A program made the position numbers and the translations under genes. Positions 33,691 through 47,184 of a stretch of DNA of 64,000 nucleotides are shown one piece after another. The first letter of the stretch is position 1, and every line of letters begins with the position of its first letter. The notes under the pieces were generated by a model that did no database searches, was not told the origin of the DNA, and saw only the letters and a program-made list of their open reading frames with translations. The stretch is from the NCBI GenBank assembly GCA_002838945.1, contig PGXB01000004.1, positions 1-64,000 of the forward strand. The letters run 5' to 3'. Source of the DNA: a candidate division Zixibacteria bacterium HGW-Zixibacteria-1 (GTDB taxonomy: Bacteria; Zixibacteria; MSB-5A5; GN15; PGXB01).

Positions 33691-35259
33691 TTACACCTCG
33701 TCAATCATCATGGTCTTAATGACTTTGGCCAGTTCCTCGGGGCGATCCTTGACGACAGTATGCATCTGGTCTATAAGCTTGGGTTTTCGCTTTTCAGGCT
33801 CTACGATAGGAACCACGCGCTCCGAGGTTTCGCCGGCGCTGCTCCCGGAGACGGTCCGGGCGCCGGAGGCGATCGGGACAATTTGGCCCAATGATGTAAA
33901 AAACTTTTTGGCTTTTTTTCGTAAGTACAGAAAAGCCAGTATCACCAGGACGACAATCCCGAGTTTCCGGGCGATATCGTAATAAAATTCCTGCTGATAG
34001 ATCTGATCGAGCTTATCCTGCTCGAATTGCATCGAGGTATTATCGAAGGCGATATTCATGACTTCGATCTGGTCATTGCGTTCGGAATCAAATCCGACGG
34101 CATTCTTGACGATCGAAGCGATGCGGTCGATGTCTTCCTGGGGGCGGGGCTGATAAACCAGCTCAGTGGTTCCGGTTCCGCCGGCGCCTTCAGCGGGCGT
34201 ATAAACGCCGTCGATCAGCAGCGCCACCGATAATCTTGTGATATTACCGACCGAGTTGATAATATGCTCGACCGTCTTGTTTATTTCGTAATTCGTAATC
34301 GAAGTTTCGATACGACTGTCATCGGTGCTTTCATTGACTTCTTCGGTTTTGTCGGCAACCGTTTTGGTTTCTTCGGTTTTTTCCTCGCTGCGGACGACGG
34401 TTGAATTGGGGTCGTACAGTTCCGAGGTTGTTTCAACCTGTTTGAAATCGAGTTCGGCGGTCACGCGGACGATTGATTTTCCGTTGCCGATGACGCCGTC
34501 GAGCATCGACTGCGCCTTTTTTTCGAGATAGTTTTCGACATTCTTGCGGACTTCCAGTTGCGAAGTGGACAATCCTGCAAGCGGCTCGGAATCGTTCATA
34601 TTGGTCAGCAGGTTGCCGTTGTAATCGACGATGGAGATGTTTTCCGATTTCAATCCTTCGACCGAGGCGGCCACCAGATGGGTGATACCGGCCAGTTGCG
34701 ATTTGCTCAGGCCGGCGGGGGTTTTCAGTTTCAGGACAATCGAGGCGGTGGCTTCCTTCTGATCCCGGGCAAAAAGGCGATCCTTGGGCATTACGATATG
34801 CACCCGGGCGGCCTGGACATCGGATAACTGCATGATCGTCCGCATTAATTCGCCCTCGAGGGCACGGCGGAAGTTGAGATTCTGCAGAAATTCGGTCATG
34901 CCGAGATTGGATTGATCGAAGATCGAATAACCGATATTGCCGGATCGCGGCAGTCCCTGTGAAGCCAGGGAGATTCTTACTTTGTACACATCACCCGATG
35001 GGACCGAAACGGTCTTGCCGCCGTCCGCGAGCTGGTATGGAATATTCTGTTCGGTCAGATATTCGGTGATTTCACCTGCTTCGGACGGTTCCAGGCCGGA
35101 GTATAGAGTGGCATAGCTGATGCTGCTGACCCATCCGGTCATAACAACAGCGCCAACAATTATTCCGGCGGTGATACCAATAAGCATAATCGCCTGACTG
35201 GGCGACATAGCTCGTACAAAATTGGAGATATTCGTAAACAGATGTTTGAAATATTCCAT
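33691..35259 (-). CDS. fliF: Flagellar MS-ring protein FliF
   Basis: 522 residues. One membrane segment near 24-47, a large periplasmic part with ring-building domains (for example ASQGLPRSGNIGYSIFDQ), a Thr/Glu-rich segment around 275-315, and a second membrane segment near 430-445. The C-terminus (PEELAKVIKTMMIDEV) binds FliG. It sits 52 bases after fliE. The ribosome site is AGGATTT. Confidence 0.97.
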   Translation of the reverse strand: MEYFKHLFTNISNFVRAMSPSQAIMLIGITAGIIVGAVVMTGWVSSISYATLYSGLEPSEAGEITEYLTEQNIPYQLADGGKTVSVPSGDVYKVRISLASQGLPRSGNIGYSIFDQSNLGMTEFLQNLNFRRALEGELMRTIMQLSDVQAARVHIVMPKDRLFARDQKEATASIVLKLKTPAGLSKSQLAGITHLVAASVEGLKSENISIVDYNGNLLTNMNDSEPLAGLSTSQLEVRKNVENYLEKKAQSMLDGVIGNGKSIVRVTAELDFKQVETTSELYDPNSTVVRSEEKTEETKTVADKTEEVNESTDDSRIETSITNYEINKTVEHIINSVGNITRLSVALLIDGVYTPAEGAGGTGTTELVYQPRPQEDIDRIASIVKNAVGFDSERNDQIEVMNIAFDNTSMQFEQDKLDQIYQQEFYYDIARKLGIVVLVILAFLYLRKKAKKFFTSLGQIVPIASGARTVSGSSAGETSERVVPIVEPEKRKPKLIDQMHTVVKDRPEELAKVIKTMMIDEV

Positions 35260-37041: not shown

Positions 37042-37776
37042 TTATGGATTGTAAAACTCGGAGTTAGGTTCGGCATGTGTCATTTCCATGGTCAGGATGA
37101 CAATATCGACACGCCGGTTTTGGGCTCTGTTTTCAATTGAGTTATTGGGGCGCATCGGGCGGTATTCGCCGTAACCAAGAGCCGAAATCTCGCTGGGACC
37201 GACGACATTATTTTCAATGAAATATCTGACCACCTCGGTGGCGCGGGCCGACGATAATTCCCAGTTCGAGGGATATTTTACGGTATTGATGGGAATATTG
37301 TCGGTATGGCCCTCGACCCGGATATGATTATCTATGCCATGCAAATATTGGGATACGGTTTCAAGCACCGATTTTGCCTTTGGTTCGAGTTCGGATAAGC
37401 CCTGCTTGAACAGCGCCGATTCGACGATATGTATGACCAGACCGCGCTCGCTCATTTCGGTACTGACCGGCTTGTCCTCGCCCGGTTTGTTGAGATTCTC
37501 CTCGATCATCTTGCCGATCGACATCAGATGTCCCACTTCCATCACGCCCTTGCCGTCGGTGAGACCGATATCGGTGCCGCGCTTGATGGCCATGCTGCCA
37601 CCCTTCAAGGCGCCGGAGAGGGCGCGCGACATTTTGCCGAATTTTTTGGCATCCACCTGGGACATCGAATACATGACAATAAAGAAGGCCAGAAGCAGCG
37701 TTATCAGGTCGGCATAGGTCAGAAGCCAGCGCTCCAGGTTTTCATGGTCATCGTTTCTTTTACGTCGAGCCATCAT
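37042..37776 (-). CDS. motB: Flagellar stator protein MotB
   Basis: 244 residues. One N-terminal membrane segment carries the proton/ion-binding Asp in TYADLITLLLAFFIVMYSMS (D23). The C-terminal OmpA-like domain has RVEGHTDNIPINTVKYPSNW and SARATEVVRYFIE, which anchors the stator to peptidoglycan. It begins 4 bases after motA and is followed by about 120 bases before the flgB promoter. Confidence 0.96.
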   Translation of the reverse strand: MMARRKRNDDHENLERWLLTYADLITLLLAFFIVMYSMSQVDAKKFGKMSRALSGALKGGSMAIKRGTDIGLTDGKGVMEVGHLMSIGKMIEENLNKPGEDKPVSTEMSERGLVIHIVESALFKQGLSELEPKAKSVLETVSQYLHGIDNHIRVEGHTDNIPINTVKYPSNWELSSARATEVVRYFIENNVVGPSEISALGYGEYRPMRPNNSIENRAQNRRVDIVILTMEMTHAEPNSEFYNP

Positions 37777-37779
37777 TGC

Positions 37780-38541
37780 TTACTCGAAATCACGCATGTG
37801 TGGAGATATGAACGAAAGTAATTTTGTCTTAACAACCCGGGGATTATCACCCGACTGAATGGATATGACTCCCTCGGTGATTAGATCGAGATTGGCCAGT
37901 TCCTCCTCGTGCCGCAGCTTTAGTTTGTCGCTGAGCGGAAGATAACAAAGATTGGCCAGGGCGACTCCCCATAGAGTGGCAATAAAGGCTCCGGCAATGG
38001 CGGTGGCCATTCGTTCGGCATCGCTGGTGCTGCCCAGTGTATGAATAAGGCCGAGCACCGTACCGATAATACCCAGCGTCGGCGAGAAACCACCCATTTT
38101 TTGAAAAAAGAGTATTCCCTTTTTGTGGCGGTCCTCGATATAGGCGATTTCAGTTTCCAATATGCCCTTCAAAACGGAACCCTCGGTACCGTCTATCAGG
38201 AGCTGAACCGCTTTTTTGAAAAAGGGATCACGGATTCTATGCATATCATTTTCGAGCCCAAGGATTCCCTCTTTACGGGCCTTCTCCGACAGCCTGACGA
38301 TGGTGTCAATCGTCAGCAGTGGGTTAGGGCTCTGGCCGGTAAAGGCCAGGCGAAGATAGGTGGGGACGCTGGTCAGCGTTTTCAGCGAGGTAGTTACGAC
38401 CGAAGCGCCGAGAGTACCGCCGATAACGATCAGCATTGCCGGCGGCTGGACAATAGCGCTGAGATGCCCGCCTTCCATAATGAATGAAACGAGGATCGCA
38501 CCGACGCCCAGAATCAATCCGCCAATTGTAGTTATATCCAT
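37780..38541 (-). CDS. motA: Flagellar stator protein MotA
   Basis: 253 residues with four membrane segments (about 3-20, 30-50, 150-170, 180-205). Family blocks are MDITTIGGLILGVGAILVSF, a RKEGILGLEND stretch on the cytoplasmic loop, and GGFSPTLGIIGTVLGLIHTL. Forms the ion channel with MotB and pushes on FliG. No strong promoter is visible upstream; the 140 bases between it and the regulator gene are discussed under rejected items. Confidence 0.96.
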   Translation of the reverse strand: MDITTIGGLILGVGAILVSFIMEGGHLSAIVQPPAMLIVIGGTLGASVVTTSLKTLTSVPTYLRLAFTGQSPNPLLTIDTIVRLSEKARKEGILGLENDMHRIRDPFFKKAVQLLIDGTEGSVLKGILETEIAYIEDRHKKGILFFQKMGGFSPTLGIIGTVLGLIHTLGSTSDAERMATAIAGAFIATLWGVALANLCYLPLSDKLKLRHEEELANLDLITEGVISIQSGDNPRVVKTKLLSFISPHMRDFE

Positions 38542-38681: not shown

Positions 38682-40034
38682 TCAGTCCTCGGTTTCGATA
38701 TTATATTCAGTCAATTTATTCCTGATGGTTCGAGTGGTTATATTCAAGGTTTCTGCAGCCTTGGTCTTATTGCCGCTGAATTTCTCAAGAGTCTTGAGAA
38801 TCAGGAATTTCTCGCCTTCGGCCAGTGTCATTCCGACCCCCACGCCGGGGACCTCATCGGCCAGTTTGCCGAGGGCCAGATCGTGCGGGAAGTCATTAGC
38901 CGTCAAAATCTTCGAAGATGCCGTCACGACCGCCCGTTCAATATAGTTTTCCAGTTCGCGGACGTTTCCGGGCCAATGGTATTTCATCAGCAGCCGCATG
39001 ACCGATTCATCGACCCCTTCGACATTTTTCCTATTTTCGACATTGTATTTATCGATAAAATGATTCATCAGGAGTGGAATATCCTCCAGCCTTTCGCGCA
39101 ACGGCACGATATGAATCGGGATGACATTCAGGCGATAGAACAGGTCATCACGGAATTTCCCTTCTTTGATAAACTCCTTCAGATTGCGGTTGGAAGTGGC
39201 AATAATGCGGACATCGACAGAAAAGGGTATTCCGGAACCGATTCTCTCGATCACCTTTTCCTGCAGGACCCGCAACAACTTAGCCTGAAGACCAAGCGGC
39301 ATTTCGGAGATTTCATCAAGCAGTAAAGTGCCGCCATCGGCCATCTCGAAGCGCCCCTTATGCTGGCGGACGGCCCCGGTAAAGGCGCCCTTTTCGTAAC
39401 CGAAAAGTTCGGCTTCAACCAGATTCTCCGGCAGGGCGGCGCAGTTGAGCGAGACGAAGGGCTTTTCGCAGCGGTCGGAAGCATAGTGCATGGCGCGGGC
39501 GACCAGTTCCTTACCGGTTCCGGATTCACCGGTAATCAGGGCGGTCGAACGGGCGCTGGCGGTGGATTCAATCAGGTCATAAACCAGCTTCATTTTGGCC
39601 GATTTGCCGACGATGTTCTGGTAGCGGGCGGCCAGATCCAAGCGCAACTGGGAATTCTCTTTTTTGAGCGTAATTAACTCGACCGCTTTGGCCACGACTA
39701 ATTCAAGGGCATCCGGGGAGGCCGGTTTAAGCAAATAATCATAGGCCCCCAGTCTCATGGCTTTTACGGCATTTTCGATGGTACCATAGGCGGTAATCAT
39801 GATGACAATCATTTCGGGATGGAGTTGTCTGGCTTTTTGCAGTAACTGGATGCCATCCATATTTTTCATGCGAATATCGGAAAGCATGAGGTCATACGAT
39901 TTATTGTTCAAGCGCACCAGCGCATCCTCGGCCGAAAAAACCGATTCGACTTCATAACCGGCCCGTGTCAGGACCTCGACAAAAAAATCATTGGCCAGTT
40001 TTTCATCGTCGACTACCAGAATATTAATCTTCAT
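38682..40034 (-). CDS. NtrC-family sigma-54 activator (flagellar FlgR/FleR-like)
   Basis: 450 residues in three domains. The receiver domain (1-120) has the phosphorylation site D53. The AAA+ domain (about 140-380) has Walker A GESGTGKE (169-176), the sigma-54-contacting GAFTGA loop (216-221) and Walker B LLLDE (237-241). A Fis-type helix-turn-helix lies at about 405-450. It is transcribed after its kinase (gap 15 bases) and just upstream of motAB. With two sigma-54 promoters in the next flagellar operons, it is the probable activator. The link is inferred from position and promoter type. Confidence 0.93.
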   Translation of the reverse strand: MKINILVVDDEKLANDFFVEVLTRAGYEVESVFSAEDALVRLNNKSYDLMLSDIRMKNMDGIQLLQKARQLHPEMIVIMITAYGTIENAVKAMRLGAYDYLLKPASPDALELVVAKAVELITLKKENSQLRLDLAARYQNIVGKSAKMKLVYDLIESTASARSTALITGESGTGKELVARAMHYASDRCEKPFVSLNCAALPENLVEAELFGYEKGAFTGAVRQHKGRFEMADGGTLLLDEISEMPLGLQAKLLRVLQEKVIERIGSGIPFSVDVRIIATSNRNLKEFIKEGKFRDDLFYRLNVIPIHIVPLRERLEDIPLLMNHFIDKYNVENRKNVEGVDESVMRLLMKYHWPGNVRELENYIERAVVTASSKILTANDFPHDLALGKLADEVPGVGVGMTLAEGEKFLILKTLEKFSGNKTKAAETLNITTRTIRNKLTEYNIETED

Positions 40035-40049
40035 AATTTGTCTCCACGG

Positions 40050-41363
40050 CTAACCCTTTCGTGCGGGCAGCACAATTGAGAATTTGGTCCCTTTGCCCAA
40101 CTGTGTTTCGGCGGCGACATCACCGCCGTGAGCCTTGATAATTTTCCAGGCTATGGATAAGCCCAGCCCGATGCCGTTTTCTTTATTGGAATAGAAAGGT
40201 GAAAATAATTTTCTGAGATCGCTTTCTTTGATACCGGAGCCGTTGTCTTCGATGATAATTTTGGCCAGGGTTTCAGTTCCCGACAACTGCAGCTTGTCCC
40301 CATATTCTCTCTGGGCCTCGGCCAAAGGCAGCGGGTGGGCCGTTACTTTGACGAGACCGTCATCCCCGCAGGCCTCGAGTCCGTTTTTCACAAAATTAAA
40401 TATGACCTGCCGGAACAACTGGCTGTCCAGATCTACGGAGACCGAGTCCTCCGGCTGCAGGCAGCGGTCAATCCTGTCGGCGGCATCCTGCAAACCATTC
40501 ATCTCCACGAATTCATCAAGCAAATCGTTCAGATAGCCGTTAAGATCGACATTGCTTTTCTCCAGCTTTTCGCGCCGGGCAAAATCGAGCAGGGTTTGAA
40601 TGGTATTGTTGATACTGCTGACACCTTCGACAATCTTGTCGGCCATTCTTTTTTTATCGGGATCGCCTTCCAGGTCGCGCGATAGCAGCGAGGCAAAGCC
40701 GCCGATTCCGGAGAGAGGGTTGCGGACCTCATGGGCGATCGACGCGGCCATCTCCCCCAGCGACGCCAGGACCTTCATTTGTGATATCTGTTCTTCCATT
40801 CTTTTGAGTTTGGATACGTCCTGGAATAATTCGACGGCGCCGATAATCTCGCCGCCACGGTTTTTCAGGAGCGAGGTCGATACCGAAAGGGTCAGGTATG
40901 TCTCATGTCTGGTCCTGATTTTTATCTCTTCATTATCCACATTGACGCCGCGCCGCATGGCCTCGAGAGCGGAACAATGCGAATCCTCGACGGTCCGAAT
41001 GACATCGCCATAATCCAGATCTCCGGAATGAAAGGACGCCTCGCTGACGCCCAGTATTTTACGGGCGGCGGGGTTCATGTGCGATATTTTTCCGGAGGTG
41101 TCAAGGGCGATGACTCCCGATGACAGTGAGTTAAGGATGCTGTTGAGAAATTCGGTGACGGCCCGGTTTTCCTTCATCAGGGATTGCAGTGTTTTGTTGA
41201 CCGCCTGGAGCTCTTCGCTCTGGCGCGTATAGGTTTCCCTGAGCGACAGGTACTGCCGCTGAATTTTATTTATGATTTTGCTGAATGAAGAGTATGAATC
41301 GGCGAACCGGCCGATATCATCCTGAATATCAACATCGATTGTTTCTTTTTCATCCATTTCCAT
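40050..41363 (-). CDS. Soluble PAS-domain sensor histidine kinase
   Basis: 437 residues, no membrane segment. A coiled N-terminus (about 30-65), a PAS domain (about 70-190), the phosphorylated His in SIAHEVRNPL (H211), and a HATPase domain (about 320-437) with NFVKNGLEA, IIEDNGSGI and GIGLGLSIAWK. This layout is like the soluble flagellar kinases FlgS, FlrB and FleS. It should phosphorylate the sigma-54 activator encoded 15 bases downstream. The signal sensed by PAS is unknown. Confidence 0.92.
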   Translation of the reverse strand: MEMDEKETIDVDIQDDIGRFADSYSSFSKIINKIQRQYLSLRETYTRQSEELQAVNKTLQSLMKENRAVTEFLNSILNSLSSGVIALDTSGKISHMNPAARKILGVSEASFHSGDLDYGDVIRTVEDSHCSALEAMRRGVNVDNEEIKIRTRHETYLTLSVSTSLLKNRGGEIIGAVELFQDVSKLKRMEEQISQMKVLASLGEMAASIAHEVRNPLSGIGGFASLLSRDLEGDPDKKRMADKIVEGVSSINNTIQTLLDFARREKLEKSNVDLNGYLNDLLDEFVEMNGLQDAADRIDRCLQPEDSVSVDLDSQLFRQVIFNFVKNGLEACGDDGLVKVTAHPLPLAEAQREYGDKLQLSGTETLAKIIIEDNGSGIKESDLRKLFSPFYSNKENGIGLGLSIAWKIIKAHGGDVAAETQLGKGTKFSIVLPARKG

Positions 41364-41629: not shown

Positions 41630-42037
41630 TTATATTTCCAGATGCCCTGTCCGAATTTCCTCGGTTTGTCTGGACTCGATTATTAATTCATCCAATATTT
41701 TGAACAGCTTGTTAATATTGAATGGTTTAATGATGTAATCATTGACCTTCAGGCGGAGGGCCTCGATGGCGGTCTCGGTGCTCGGGAAGGCCGTCATGAT
41801 GACGACCGGCAGCGACGGCTTGAAATTCCGAATCCTTTTGACAAAGTCGATGCCGTCGATTTCAGGCATCTTCAAATCAACCAGGGCGATGTCGAAATTC
41901 CGATTTCTCAGAGTTTCGAGGGCACGTTCCGGGGATTCATGAACGGAAACGAGCCACCCTTTTTCTGAAAAGAAATCATACAAAAGATCTCTTATGAGCA
42001 ATTCGTCATCGACGACGAGAATGCTGTTTTTGCTCAA
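41630..42037 (-). CDS. Single-domain response regulator
   Basis: 135 residues, a receiver domain and nothing more. Conserved residues are DD at 10-11, the phosphorylation Asp in LVDLKMP (about 54), Thr in MTAF and Lys in IIKPF. It ends in a short acidic tail. It lies 37 bases after the kinase-STAS fusion gene. It may pass a signal to or from that partner-switch unit, or to the motor, but no partner is certain. Confidence 0.9.
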   Translation of the reverse strand: MSKNSILVVDDELLIRDLLYDFFSEKGWLVSVHESPERALETLRNRNFDIALVDLKMPEIDGIDFVKRIRNFKPSLPVVIMTAFPSTETAIEALRLKVNDYIIKPFNINKLFKILDELIIESRQTEEIRTGHLEI

Positions 42038-42074: not shown

Positions 42075-42875
42075 TCAACTGGCTTCCACCGGCTGATATG
42101 ATTTAAGCGCTTCTTCTTCGGAGGTGAAAATCTCAAAAATATGGGACAATTGGGTAATATCGAAGATTTCCTGTACATAATCTTCAAGATTGGACAGGGT
42201 CAATCGTCCGCGATAAATTCTGATTTCCTTCATGATCGAAACCAAAGCGCCCAATCCGGAGCTGTTGACAAACTCGACTTCGGAAAGGTTGAGATGCACC
42301 GATGTTTTGCCGGACTCCAGGATCTTTTTGACCTCTTCCTTAAGTCTTCCGCCGGTGCCAAGATCGAGACGACCGGACAATGAAATTATTGCCACATTGC
42401 CTTCGTCTTTTCTGCTGAACTCCATTACTGCCTCCAGGTTGCGTTTATTATCTTTGACGTTTTTATACTTATTTCTCTCGAAAGTCATTGAAATCCGCAG
42501 ACCTCCGGTCCCGTTATCTCTGGTCATTTTAAAGTCGTCGGCGATTGATTCCATCAAATCCACTCCCCGGCCGCCTTCCTGCATTAAATCCGAGGGTTTT
42601 CTTTTATTTATGGATTTCACATTACCGTCGCCTTCATCAGTAATATCGGCAGATACAACGGCATCATTAATACCAATGGTTATTTCAATGGATTTGCTTT
42701 TATCGAAATTGTTGCCATGCGTGAGGGCATTGGTAAACCCCTCGGACACAGTAAGAAGAACGTTGCCGCGGAGCTTGCCGGAAATATTGTTTTCCATCAG
42801 CAGCGTTTTGATGTCTTCATACATGCGGCCTTCCGATTCAATAACCGAAGCATACTTAAATGATTTGATTATCAT
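42075..42875 (-). CDS. Fused RsbW-like serine kinase and STAS anti-anti-sigma protein
   Basis: 266 residues. The N-terminal HATPase domain (1 to about 135) is RsbW/SpoIIAB-like: N-box SEGFTNALTHGN (44-55), G1 box DEGDG (80-84) and G2 box GGRGVDL (101-107). A short Lys-rich linker follows (about 135-148). The C-terminal STAS domain (about 150-260) keeps the serine pair in VNSSGLGAL (S205/S206) that is phosphorylated in SpoIIAA/RsbV. Kinase and its antagonist are usually separate proteins. It overlaps the PP2C gene by 4 bases, so it is probably coupled to its own phosphatase. Confidence 0.88.
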   Translation of the reverse strand: MIIKSFKYASVIESEGRMYEDIKTLLMENNISGKLRGNVLLTVSEGFTNALTHGNNFDKSKSIEITIGINDAVVSADITDEGDGNVKSINKRKPSDLMQEGGRGVDLMESIADDFKMTRDNGTGGLRISMTFERNKYKNVKDNKRNLEAVMEFSRKDEGNVAIISLSGRLDLGTGGRLKEEVKKILESGKTSVHLNLSEVEFVNSSGLGALVSIMKEIRIYRGRLTLSNLEDYVQEIFDITQLSHIFEIFTSEEEALKSYQPVEAS

Positions 42876-44176
42876 AGATCCCCCTTTAGGAACTTGATAT
42901 TCAGTAAAGTAAAATCATCAAAAGGTTCATCACCGGTGCCCTCGGCAAAGCGATCGACCCAGTCGCGGACCATTTTACAGAAGTCCGCCGCCGGCAGATC
43001 GCCTTCCTTGATAAATGCGTTTTTAAGGCGCTCGACACCGAATTGACCTTTATGAATATTTTCCGCTTCGGTTACTCCATCGGTAAAGGCAAGAAGTCTG
43101 TCACCGCGCGAAATGTTAATTCCGCCTTCCTTGAATTTTGCTTCCGCGAATTGCCCGACAAATGTTCCACCCGGATGCAGCAGCCTGATTTCCTGCTTTT
43201 GCGAATCCCAGTAAAAAGGCGGAAGGTGTCCGGCATTGCAATATGAGGCCTTACTTCCCTTCATGTCCACGCGGGCGATAAATAGAGTCACGAACATATG
43301 GTGGCTCTTGATGACGCCGTTACACAGGACATTGTTAAGATTGGTCATCAGCTTTGACGGGCTTATATCCGGCGAATTCATTAACTCCGAGCGAATGACC
43401 GCGGCCGAAGCCGCCATGAGCATAGCTGCCGGAACCCCTTTGCTGGAAACGTCTCCGATGACAACGACAAAATCCTGCTCGCCGACACGGATGATATCAT
43501 AGAAATCGCCGCCGACAGATCGGGCCGGACGATACATGGTGCCGATGTCGACGCCCTTCATATCCGAGCGCAGGTCGGGCAGAATGGTTTCCTGGATCTG
43601 TCGGGCAATGGTCAGTTCCTGATCGATTTTTTGTTTCAAAAGCGATTCTTTGAGAAGAAGCGCGTTGTCGATAGCCACCGCCGCGAAATTGATGAGCATG
43701 GCCAGATGCCGTTTGTCTTCATCCAGAAACCCTTCGTCGGTCGTCTTATTGATGATTATAATTATGCCATGGCACTTGGCCCGCGATTTTATGGGGAGTG
43801 CCAAAACACTTTTGACATGGGGGCCGAATTCCAGTTTACGATTATACTCCCGGATGAGAACCGGCTGCTGTTTGCTGTAGCAAAAGGTGGCGATATCGGT
43901 GCCATCATCGCAGAAAATATTTCTGGCGACAATGTCATCGACCCCCCAGATCACTTTGGAGACAAGTTCGCCGCCCTCATTTAATTGCAGCAGCCCGACT
44001 TCACCATCGACCATTCTTATCGACATTTCCATAACCACGGAAAGAATGGTCTCCAATTCCAGTAAAGATGTAATCAGAGCCCCCATAGTTGCCAGGTCGT
44101 GAAGATTCAGCCTGGTTTTTTCAAGTCTATCTTCCAGTTCGAAGATTCTTGACTCGGTTGAAATGTCTTGTGCCAT
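42872..44176 (-). CDS. GAF-domain PP2C-type serine phosphatase (RsbU/SpoIIE-like)
   Basis: 434 residues, soluble. A coiled N-terminus, a GAF domain (about 30-185) with a small-molecule-binding fold, and a SpoIIE-type phosphatase (about 195-430) with GGDFYD, GDVSSKGVPAAMLMA and FTDGVTEAEN, the metal-binding Asp residues. It would dephosphorylate the STAS serine. It is the first gene of the unit phosphatase, kinase-STAS, receiver. The ribosome site before its ATG is weak. Confidence 0.9.
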   Translation of the reverse strand: MAQDISTESRIFELEDRLEKTRLNLHDLATMGALITSLLELETILSVVMEMSIRMVDGEVGLLQLNEGGELVSKVIWGVDDIVARNIFCDDGTDIATFCYSKQQPVLIREYNRKLEFGPHVKSVLALPIKSRAKCHGIIIIINKTTDEGFLDEDKRHLAMLINFAAVAIDNALLLKESLLKQKIDQELTIARQIQETILPDLRSDMKGVDIGTMYRPARSVGGDFYDIIRVGEQDFVVVIGDVSSKGVPAAMLMAASAAVIRSELMNSPDISPSKLMTNLNNVLCNGVIKSHHMFVTLFIARVDMKGSKASYCNAGHLPPFYWDSQKQEIRLLHPGGTFVGQFAEAKFKEGGINISRGDRLLAFTDGVTEAENIHKGQFGVERLKNAFIKEGDLPAADFCKMVRDWVDRFAEGTGDEPFDDFTLLNIKFLKGDL

Positions 44177-44629
44177 AGGGGATTAATCGGCATAATGATC
44201 GCTTAATTAACCATTATTTTGGGCAAATGGAAAAGTCAAGGCCCGCCATAGAAATATGCAAGTATTTGCATCATTTATTGCAGCATATTGCAAATCATTA
44301 CGATTATGATTACAAATAATCTACTTAAAGACCTGCTTTCACTGCTTTCTCGGCATCGACAAAATATTTTTTTAGGGGTTGGCAGGAATCATTTTAAATC
44401 ATTGTATCCAATGGCGAAAATAATTGCCTTTTCCGTATGCCGTAAGTGGTTGGTTAGATGATGATTACAAGCGCAAATCGAGATTGCGACGGACATTATT
44501 ATTGGCTTCTGATTTCGGAATCTTTATTCAGGGGTAAGTGGCTATTATTAAATATATTGCGGCATAATATTCGGCATAGAACATGCATACTTATTTGATG
44601 AATAACAATACCTAAGAAAGGAAATGCCT
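44177..44629. other. Divergent intergenic region, 453 bases
   Basis: No gene is visible. It separates the leftward phosphatase unit from the rightward PEP-CTERM genes and must hold both promoters, but I find no consensus -35/-10 or sigma-54 site. It does contain a cluster of TTGCA-type motifs at 44254-44295, listed separately. Confidence 0.5.
44254..44295. repeat. Cluster of (T)TGCA motifs with a 7-bp inverted repeat
   Basis: ATATGCA, ATTTGCA, TATTGCA and ATATTGCAAAT occur within 42 bases. ATTTGCA (44264-44270) and TGCAAAT (44289-44295) form a perfect inverted repeat. It lies about 80 bases before the phosphatase start and could be a regulator-binding site. Confidence 0.35.
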
Positions 44630-45322
44630 ATGAAAAAAATCTGGATTCTTATTTTCTCCATCCTTCTGCTGGCCTTTGGCTCATCGCAGGCGGTCCCGAA
44701 TCTCCAGCTTTTCATAGCCGGGGGCACTTATGACGCGGCTACCGAAAGCTGGGTGTCAACCGACGGCACTTTCGACATTTACGTGATCGGGGCCAATGAA
44801 GCCCTTTCCAACGTAAAGGTGAGCATGGCGCTGGATTTTGCCCAGAATGATGATCCTAATAGTATGGCCTCGGTAAACGTTAACGGTACCACATACGATG
44901 AATGGATTTACGGTTATGCTCCGATCATGACGGCCCCGGCTTTTGATCCGGGCGATGATCTGGCGAAGCATGGTATTTTTCCAGCCTGGTTTACAGAATT
45001 CGATGCCGGCAATTTTGGCATGGTCGGCGGTGTCGGCGATGTTCAGCCGAAGCCTGCTTACTGGGATCCGTCAACCCAAGGTTACCTGGCCAATTCCAAG
45101 GCGATGGGAGAATATAAGGTCTTCACAATTACTGCCACCGGTACGGCATTTCTGCATTTCGATGCCTATACTCTTAATCCTGACGGCAGCATCCAGTATT
45201 TCGCACCTTTCTCGCATGATGCTACTGGAACGCCTCCTCCCGGAATTCCCGAGCCTGCCAGCCTGGTTCTTTTCACTCTTGGAAGCATGGGCCTGGGCAT
45301 TTACAGAAGGTATCGAAAATAG
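44630..45322 (+). CDS. PEP-CTERM-anchored exported protein
   Basis: 230 residues with a signal peptide (about 1-20, ending GSSQA). The body is beta-rich and unassigned. The C-terminus has PGIPEPASLVLFTLGSMGL followed by RRYRK, the PEP motif, membrane helix and basic tail recognised by exosortase systems. No exosortase gene is in the window. The second ATG (44630) is 6 bases after AAGGAA, while the first overlaps that site, so I use the second. A similar but much shorter gene follows. Confidence 0.85.
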   Translation: MKKIWILIFSILLLAFGSSQAVPNLQLFIAGGTYDAATESWVSTDGTFDIYVIGANEALSNVKVSMALDFAQNDDPNSMASVNVNGTTYDEWIYGYAPIMTAPAFDPGDDLAKHGIFPAWFTEFDAGNFGMVGGVGDVQPKPAYWDPSTQGYLANSKAMGEYKVFTITATGTAFLHFDAYTLNPDGSIQYFAPFSHDATGTPPPGIPEPASLVLFTLGSMGLGIYRRYRK

Positions 45323-45353
45323 TCGGATAATTCGATTTCGCAAGGCATTTAAT

Positions 45354-45382
45354 AAAACGGGGGGCACCAGCCTCCCGTTTTT
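45354..45382 (+). terminator. Intrinsic terminator of the first PEP-CTERM gene
   Basis: AAAACGGGGGG (45354-45364) pairs with CCTCCCGTTTT (45371-45381) with one G-T pair, loop CACCAG, and a T-run. It lies 32 bases past the stop. Confidence 0.8.
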
Positions 45383-45511
45383 ACTTTGAACTGTATAATA
45401 ATTGCACAGAGTGGCACTATTCTCATATCATGGATTGATTTAATCCACTCATAGGAACTAAACCCCAAACCTCTTGTTCAAGAGTACACACTTTTGAGAG
45501 GATTACATGAT

Positions 45512-45823
45512 ATGAAGATAACACTTTCAGTGTTGCTGGTTATTCTTATACTGGCACCGATTTCATTCGCCCAGATGTCGGCCGTCGATCACAAGGCGTC
45601 TCCGCCATCGACACCGAACACCGCCAAGAACAACGCCAATCAACCTTCGAACCTGATCGGGGATTACACCGCGAACAGTGAGAATGTCGGTTGCACGATT
45701 ACTGATCCGGCGAAAAATAATGGCACAGGGAACGGAACCCCGGCGATTCCAGAGCCGGCCACATTGATTCTGCTGGGCGCCGGAATAGCGGCGATCGGTA
45801 TAAGACGAAGATTCAAAAAGTAA
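45512..45823 (+). CDS. Small PEP-CTERM protein
   Basis: 103 residues. A signal peptide (about 1-20, ending SFAQ) is followed by a low-complexity Asn/Ser/Pro-rich middle (about 25-75) with one Cys. It ends in PAIPEPATLILLGAGIAAIG plus RRRFKK, the PEP-CTERM sorting tail. The ATG at 45512 follows GAGAGG by 10 bases. Almost all of the mature protein is the short linker, so it may be a surface or matrix component. No function is known. Confidence 0.75.
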   Translation: MKITLSVLLVILILAPISFAQMSAVDHKASPPSTPNTAKNNANQPSNLIGDYTANSENVGCTITDPAKNNGTGNGTPAIPEPATLILLGAGIAAIGIRRRFKK

Positions 45824-45843: not shown

Positions 45844-45872
45844 ACGCGGCTTTGACAGGGTCGCGTTTTTTT
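45844..45872 (+). terminator. Terminator between the second PEP-CTERM gene and der
   Basis: ACGCGGC (45844-45850) pairs with GGTCGCGT minus one base (45860-45866), and a run of seven Ts follows. It lies 20 bases past the stop codon and touches the end of the convergent der gene. Confidence 0.7.
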
Positions 45873-47184
45873 ATTTTCTTTTCTTGAAGACAAAGCGGAC
45901 CGGGATGCCCTCAAAATCATAGCGCGCCCGGAACTGATTCTCGATAAAACGAAGGTAGCTTTTCTGCAGAAGATCGGGATAATTGCAGAAAAACATGAAA
46001 GTCGGAGGGCGGACACCGCTCTGGGTCACATAAAAGAGCTTTATATATTTTCCCTGCACGGCCGCCGGAGGTTGTTTTTGAGTAAGTTCCTCCAGAAAAT
46101 TATTGAGTTCAGGGGTGGCAATTTCGATGTGCCAGTTTTCGTAGACATGATCGACCAGCGAGATAGTCTTAAGGACCCGCTGGCCGGTCAGGGCCGAGAT
46201 ATATATAATAGGCAGATATGAAATGGTTTTGGCGAATTCACGGATTTGCGTGGTAAAAATATCGGCGGTGCGTTCATCCTTTTCGATCAGATCCCACTTG
46301 TTGACCACCATGACAATGGCCCTCCGGGCCTCGACAGCATCCTCGATAACTTTGAGGTCCTGAACGGTCAGCCCCTGTGAGGCATCGACCAGGACCATTG
46401 CCACATGGCAGCTCTCGATGGCTTTCAGGGTGCGCAGGGTGGTGAAATACTCGATATCTTCCTTGACCTTGGCTTTCTTCCTCAGACCGGCGGTGTCGAT
46501 CAGGACATACTTCTTCCCGTCCAGCTCGAACGGGGTATCGACGGCATCGCGGGTGGTCCCGGGAATGGGCGAGACAATAACCCGCTCCTCGCCGATCAGG
46601 CGATTAATAAGCATCGACTTGCCGACATTGGGCTTGCCGATAACCGCAATTCGAACCGCCTCGGACTCATCCTTTTCGTTTTCGACCGATGGGAGCATTT
46701 CGACAATAAGATCAAGTGTCTCGCCGATATTCCGCCCGACCGTGGCCGAGATGGCCATCGGTTCGCCCAAACCCAGTCTCAGGAATTGGAAACGCTCGTA
46801 CTCCTGGATGTCGTTATCGGCCTTATTGGCCACCAGAAGGACTTTCTTGCCCGATTTTTGAAGTTTGGCGGCGATACGCTCATCGACTTCATCGGGGCCG
46901 GTTCGGCTGTCAACGATAAAGACAATCAGATCGGCCTGATCGATGGCGGTTTCGGACTGCTCGAGAACCAGCCGGCTGATGCCGGTTTTGGTGTTGGGAA
47001 TCATGCCGCCGGTGTCGATCAGGTAAAATTCGCGCCCGGCCCAGTCGCACAGGGAGTAGTTCCGGTCGCGGGTGACGCCGGGGGTATCATCGACAATGGC
47101 CAGCCGTTTGCGCAGAAAGCGATTGAACAGCGACGATTTCCCGACATTGGGCCGTCCGATTAATGCCACCAATGGAATACTCAC
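45871..47184 (-). CDS. der: Ribosome-assembly GTPase Der (EngA)
   Basis: Double GTPase needed for 50S subunit maturation. It has 437 residues with two G domains: GRPNVGKSSLFNRFL (about 9-23) with DTPGVTRDR and NKAD, and GKPNVGKSMLINR with DTAGLRKK and NKWD. The C-terminal KH-like domain ends in RFVFKKRK. It overlaps the DUF512 gene by 4 bases. Confidence 0.97.
   Translation of the reverse strand: MSIPLVALIGRPNVGKSSLFNRFLRKRLAIVDDTPGVTRDRNYSLCDWAGREFYLIDTGGMIPNTKTGISRLVLEQSETAIDQADLIVFIVDSRTGPDEVDERIAAKLQKSGKKVLLVANKADNDIQEYERFQFLRLGLGEPMAISATVGRNIGETLDLIVEMLPSVENEKDESEAVRIAVIGKPNVGKSMLINRLIGEERVIVSPIPGTTRDAVDTPFELDGKKYVLIDTAGLRKKAKVKEDIEYFTTLRTLKAIESCHVAMVLVDASQGLTVQDLKVIEDAVEARRAIVMVVNKWDLIEKDERTADIFTTQIREFAKTISYLPIIYISALTGQRVLKTISLVDHVYENWHIEIATPELNNFLEELTQKQPPAAVQGKYIKLFYVTQSGVRPPTFMFFCNYPDLLQKSYLRFIENQFRARYDFEGIPVRFVFKKRK

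Follow-up and report, generated by a model that had tools for sequence, protein, structure and literature searches.

The partner switches of Bacillus, RsbU-RsbW-RsbV and SpoIIE-SpoIIAB-SpoIIAA, are the nearest described relatives of the module considered here, and the phosphorylation cycle is established for these families. The module shares with them the three domain families, the ATP-site and serine motifs and the folds. However, in the Bacillus switches the kinase and the STAS protein are separate and have a sigma factor as partner, whereas here both are joined in one chain, no SigB, SigF or SigG family member scores above its cut-off in the source genome and the genes lie in a flagellar cluster.

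The preliminary description of this locus held that kinase and STAS are separate in known partner-switch systems. This is contradicted by Rv1364c of M. tuberculosis, a single chain holding sensor, PP2C, kinase and STAS, in which the STAS domain is the substrate of the chain's own kinase and phosphatase activities (PMC7693655, PMC12143880). Like the module here, Rv1364c has kinase and STAS in one chain, together with a PP2C phosphatase (PMC7693655, PMC12143880). In Rv1364c, however, the PP2C domain belongs to that same chain, while here it is encoded by a separate gene with a 4-base overlap, and the module lacks the Rv1364c-type arrangement of PP2C, kinase and STAS in a single protein. No other kinase-STAS chain was found in the papers searched.

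Other described systems resemble the module in part. In HsbR-HsbA of P. aeruginosa, PP2C, kinase and STAS control motility (PMC6482189), a role that is predicted here, but receiver, PP2C and kinase form one protein there and the separate STAS protein acts through FlgM. This layout is closer to the phosphatase-kinase fusion of one Zixibacteria family (f3, see below) than to the kinase-STAS fusion. RbaV-RbaW-RbaY of Rhodobacter capsulatus also consists of STAS, kinase and PP2C, has no known sigma target and is linked to motility (PMC3999984, PMC8256260), although its components are unfused. In SypA-SypE of Vibrio fischeri the STAS protein carries the downstream output, and the role of the kinase is limited to setting the phosphorylation state of STAS (PMC10120452), as is proposed here; kinase, receiver and phosphatase are nevertheless one protein there, with STAS separate and biofilm as the output. 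Finally, CheA-L/CheA-S, infB and other pairs of N-terminal proteoforms are produced from one gene with two in-frame starts, the shorter product having its own role (PMC11005335). Those pairs have been demonstrated, whereas the short form considered here, a STAS protein, is predicted.

The fused gene and its surroundings

The window, that is, the whole stretch of 64,000 nucleotides analysed from a Zixibacteria contig, contains the features given in Table 1. As had been proposed, kinase and STAS domains occupy one open reading frame of 266 residues. Pfam matched HATPase_c_2 at residues 22-131 (E 9e-16) and STAS at residues 158-256 (E 6e-19), both above the curated cut-offs. The AlphaFold2 model of the chain has two confident domains (mean pLDDT 87) joined by a low-confidence linker at about residues 141-150, and Foldseek searches with the two domains retrieved SpoIIAB/RsbW structures for the kinase half and SpoIIAA/RsbV structures for the STAS half.

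Table 1. Features of the partner-switching module and its neighbours in the window.
Feature	Positions	Strand	Basis or remark
Fused kinase-STAS gene, 266 aa	42075..42875	-	ORF, Pfam, AlphaFold2, Foldseek
HATPase_c_2 (RsbW/SpoIIAB-like) kinase domain	42483..42812	-	Pfam, invariant residues
STAS (RsbV/SpoIIAA-like) domain with invariant N-S-S-G-L-G	42108..42404	-	Pfam, alignment
Internal Shine-Dalgarno GGAGG	42431..42435	-	All 17 fused genes have GGAG or GGAGG
Internal ATG, codon 151, at the start-codon position of relatives' separate STAS gene	42423..42425	-	Alignment
Free STAS product of 116 aa, predicted within the fused gene	42075..42425	-	Internal ATG and Shine-Dalgarno
GAF and PP2C/SpoIIE phosphatase, 434 aa	42872..44176	-	Pfam
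Single-domain response regulator, TTG start	41630..42037	-	Pfam Response_reg, E 5e-29
PAS histidine kinase (NtrB-like)	40050..41363	-	
Sigma-54-dependent response regulator (NtrC-like)	38682..40034	-	
MotA	37780..38541	-	
MotB	37042..37776	-	
FliF	33691..35259	-	Flagellar cluster goes on downstream

The claim that the ATP-site motifs and the STAS serine pair are intact was borne out by alignment, where they are invariant or nearly so. Among 58 kinase homologues E45, N49, G102, R103 and G104 are invariant, D80 is present in 56 and G82 in 57, so that the N-box E/N, the G1 Asp and the G2 GxG expected of an RsbW/SpoIIAB-type HATPase_c_2 domain are all in place. The kinase half nevertheless scored only 31-38 bits against the NCBIfam RsbW and SpoIIAB equivalog models, whose cut-offs are 135-155. 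By its sequence the kinase is a relative of RsbW and SpoIIAB and neither of the two itself. The STAS half has the STAS fold and a putative phosphorylatable serine within a [DN]-S-[ST]-G motif, N204-S205-S206-G207-L208-G209 being invariant in 61/61 sequences. It passes TIGR00377 (71 bits, cut-off 53) and falls below the NCBIfam SpoIIAA equivalog cut-off (60 bits against 115). A sequencing error or frameshift joining two normal genes, named beforehand as the finding that would overturn the fusion, is ruled out since 16 further assemblies, among them a genome of the same genus, carry the fusion as well.

The adjoining phosphatase gene, with its overlap of 4 bases, was likewise found as described. 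Both of its domains exceed the curated Pfam cut-offs (GAF E 1.6e-8, SpoIIE E 3.3e-41), and a PP2C homologue is present in 57 of 60 relative loci. Downstream of the fused gene there follow the response regulator, the PAS histidine kinase, the sigma-54-dependent regulator, MotA, MotB and basal-body genes. It is thus correct that no sigma factor is adjacent, with the qualification that the receiver gene is closely followed by genes for a histidine kinase and a sigma-54-dependent regulator and that FliA is encoded elsewhere in the genome. On the other side, between the phosphatase and a GTPase gene at 45871-47184, the window encodes at 44624-45823 two small proteins whose C termini resemble PEP-CTERM tails, with PEPASL/PEPATL followed by hydrophobic residues and an Arg-rich end.

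Fused and split states in Zixibacteria

Homologues were found at E<=0.001 in 130 of 133 genomes of the phylum; the module was counted as absent in 28 genomes, in which the best match had an E above about 1e-17 or was missing. Sixty relative loci with flanks and the window made up a set of 61. Kinase and STAS share one frame in 17 of these and do not in 40, a class that takes in a few loci with one partner too divergent to match. The remaining four (L096, L097, L109 and L110, family f3) have phosphatase and kinase fused instead, with STAS separate. In most relatives kinase and STAS are two adjacent genes in the same gene order.

On the maximum-likelihood tree the kinase-STAS state requires at least five changes, all five forced by well-supported (starred) branches, and the phosphatase-kinase state requires one; the root was not inferred, so these changes may be gains or losses of the fused state. 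Joining (or splitting) has therefore recurred. In families f4 and f18 fused and split genomes are sisters (G075 fused and G076 split; G125 fused and G124 split). A single base change is enough to join the two genes in many split relatives, where kinase and STAS share a frame and are separated by one stop. In the family of the window the fusion is found in ten genomes with kinase identity down to 43% and the frame kept. From the breadth of the split state we infer that it is ancestral; an ordinary operon of three genes, PP2C, kinase and STAS, most likely gave rise to the fusion, which recurs on the tree.

Relatives that bear a name in the public records belong to Candidatus Zixiibacteriota. A scan of genome contigs by close similarity matched only two Zixibacteria loci, and the fusion frequencies given here cover this phylum. 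A putative kinase-STAS fusion on a Fusobacterium replicon was discarded, as it consists of two overlapping ORFs in different frames and is not a single chain. An unusual conservation of STAS through an extra partner was also considered and rejected: a control module of the same genomes (STAS-kinase-PP2C, contig C3) shows a similar excess of STAS over kinase conservation, the gap in this comparison being roughly 75% versus 56% identity. Two further arrangements were observed in the source genome. A second PP2C locus there (G000:C1:107349-108398; L004, L133) encodes a chain of 265 aa in the reverse order, with a weak STAS-like part and then HATPase, directly preceding a separate STAS gene of 121 aa, so that fused and free STAS again occur together. 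At G000:C21:29963-32351 (L132) PP2C and HATPase_c_2 matches lie in one frame of 673 aa and the STAS match in an adjacent, separate frame.

A probable internal start at codon 151

Met151 is invariant in the 17 fused chains, and its codon aligns with the start of the STAS protein in most split relatives. The duplex energy with the anti-Shine-Dalgarno tail of 16S rRNA averages -9.6 kcal/mol at codon 151 against -2.9 at 120 other internal Met codons (p=1e-10, although the fused sequences are related and such p-values overstate their independence). In the window it is -9.3. This internal site is comparable in strength to the Shine-Dalgarno of the kinase gene itself, and more constant. Every fused gene has GGAG or GGAGG at a Shine-Dalgarno spacing before this codon; the full GGAGG is present in 14/17, and in L073, L075 and L076 the motif is weaker (AGGAGA, GGGAGA).

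The codon alignment of 13 fused genes contains three invariant 5-mers, GCCGA, ATGAA and GGAGG. GCCGA, at codon 76, encodes AD or AE and ATGAA, at codon 215, encodes MK, whereas GGAGG (codons 147-149) spans ten different tripeptides and is the only one found over more than two peptides. In addition, all 13 genes use GAG for the Glu inside GGAGG, even though GAA is their more frequent Glu codon (naive p 2.5e-6, kinship ignored), and of 37 invariant two-fold-degenerate columns in the ten genes of the window's family only two keep one codon throughout, that Glu column among them. Because GGAGG is invariant while the encoded tripeptide varies in ten ways, its conservation points to selection on the RNA. 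The fused gene thus combines a conserved internal Shine-Dalgarno and start codon with signs of nucleotide-level selection, as would be looked for in a gene with two in-frame starts.

The four phosphatase-kinase fusions, which represent one event, served as control. They have no Met at the position of the kinase start; in two of them an ATG lies further in, with a weak Shine-Dalgarno (-5.2). As regards the linker of the kinase-STAS chains, five close fused pairs differ at codon positions 1, 2 and 3 by 10, 11 and 24 changes (p=0.017), and this excess at third positions indicates that the linker is probably translated. A Shine-Dalgarno within a gene is no proof of initiation, and the short product is a prediction. 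However, the preserved internal ribosome-binding site suggests that the cell also makes free STAS, and the conservation of the inner start argues that free STAS is needed besides the fused chain.

Link to motility and proposed mechanism

Among 58 loci of 8 kb or more, che or mot/flagellar genes are found near the module in 52, and 5 of the remaining 6 have an ntrB/ntrC pair. Downstream of the module the relatives have cheR, cheY, cheZ, cheA and cheB, or ntrB, ntrC, motA, motB and flagellar genes (CheZ and HEAT were named by Pfam, the others by reading of translations). A receiver gene comes after STAS in most of them, directly or past a HEAT gene; about half of the loci encode a long HEAT-repeat protein in the interval from STAS to the response regulator (for instance L030:4893-6800 and L108:6033-7946). 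The module is present in 94 of 103 genomes with fliF and in 11 of 30 without it (p=3e-9, kinship ignored). When only genomes at least 90% complete are considered, the figures are 67/71 and 6/13 (p=9e-5, kinship ignored). Exceptions exist in both directions, as the module occurs in 11 genomes without detected fliF and is absent from 9 that have it. These counts support the early guess that motility is involved. Since the module heads a flagellar or chemotaxis cluster across the phylum, motility is likely its output. No flagellar partner switch of Zixibacteria was described in the papers searched.

We propose that the stop codon between kinase and STAS genes was lost while the STAS ribosome-binding site and ATG were retained, so that one gene would yield a kinase of 266 aa with a tethered STAS and a free STAS of 116 aa. 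The kinase would phosphorylate serine 205 or 206 of STAS, in its tethered form, its free form or both, and the GAF-PP2C phosphatase would remove the phosphate when its GAF domain senses a signal. Such a cycle is likely because kinase, substrate serine and phosphatase are all intact. Free STAS, when unphosphorylated, would carry the output as a mobile protein and act on the expression of flagellar genes or on motility, while tethered STAS might be a built-in substrate or competitor that buffers the kinase: as every kinase would carry one STAS, only STAS in excess would reach the target. We lean slightly towards the joint claim that this partner-switching gene gives two products and acts in motility; we are less sure of what the tether does.

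The main rival to buffering by tethered STAS is that the fusion is neutral, the stop having been lost while the STAS start continues to give a working protein and the kinase carries a tail that is tolerated but has no function. Two products would also be expected in that case. The recurrence of the fused state, its differences between close relatives (G075/G076, G125/G124) and the many split pairs that one base change would fuse are all compatible with neutrality. On the contrary, the persistence of the frame through ten genomes of the window's family despite the divergence of their kinases, and the excess of third-position changes in the linker of close fused pairs, are not what a tolerated tail would lead one to expect, and we regard neutrality as rather unlikely. 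It is less probable still that the fused chain is the sole product, with the kinase phosphorylating its own STAS, the PP2C resetting it and the single molecule switching a third partner. One stop-free frame in 17 genomes, a linker whose low confidence in the AlphaFold2 model would permit contact between the domains and the example of Rv1364c, which shows that a chain of this type can both add phosphate to its own STAS domain and remove it (PMC7693655), are in agreement with it. However, it leaves unexplained that every fused gene has kept the Shine-Dalgarno and ATG, 13 of these genes with conservation at the RNA level, and that the internal start was lost in the phosphatase-kinase fusion. Phosphorylation in cis, put forward in the preliminary description, thus has a precedent in Rv1364c but is probably not the whole output, as the retained ribosome-binding site and ATG lead one to expect free STAS. 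Neither the AlphaFold2 model nor the tree distinguishes phosphorylation in cis from phosphorylation in trans.

With respect to the target, FliA is a candidate for direct control, because the genome has FliA, no SigB/F/G member above cut-off and no detected FlgM. This possibility is compatible with the two-product mechanism. FliA lies in an flhB-flhA-flhF-flhG-fliA cluster of the source genome (by reading of translations). FlgM was found by profile in only 17/133 genomes of the phylum and not in the source genome, which lacks it at the place where the relative G089 has it. Moreover, HsbA, the STAS protein of the P. aeruginosa system, affects FliA by way of FlgM (PMC6482189). Nevertheless, a profile may miss a protein as short as FlgM, and genomes lacking the module have FliA too; we consider FliA an improbable target. 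FliA was above cut-off in 124/133 Zixibacteria genomes, including many without detected fliF. The broadest formulation, in which the fusion arose repeatedly in Zixibacteria with the internal STAS start kept each time, one gene sets the ratio of tethered to free STAS for a motility switch and control of FliA may be direct, given that FlgM is undetected in most genomes, is quite doubtful as a whole.

Known partner switches have the same domains and logic as the module, and kinase-STAS chains have a precedent. Two features appear in none of the papers searched and are new to that extent: a fusion that recurs and conserves the internal STAS start, and the association of the module with motility genes throughout the phylum. 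The fusion suggests a route by which a two-protein switch may be fused and yet keep a free messenger, through repeated loss of the stop with the inner start retained. Should the short product prove real, other domain-fusion annotations may conceal free STAS proteins, and the ratio of tethered to free STAS would be a testable design variable of partner switching.
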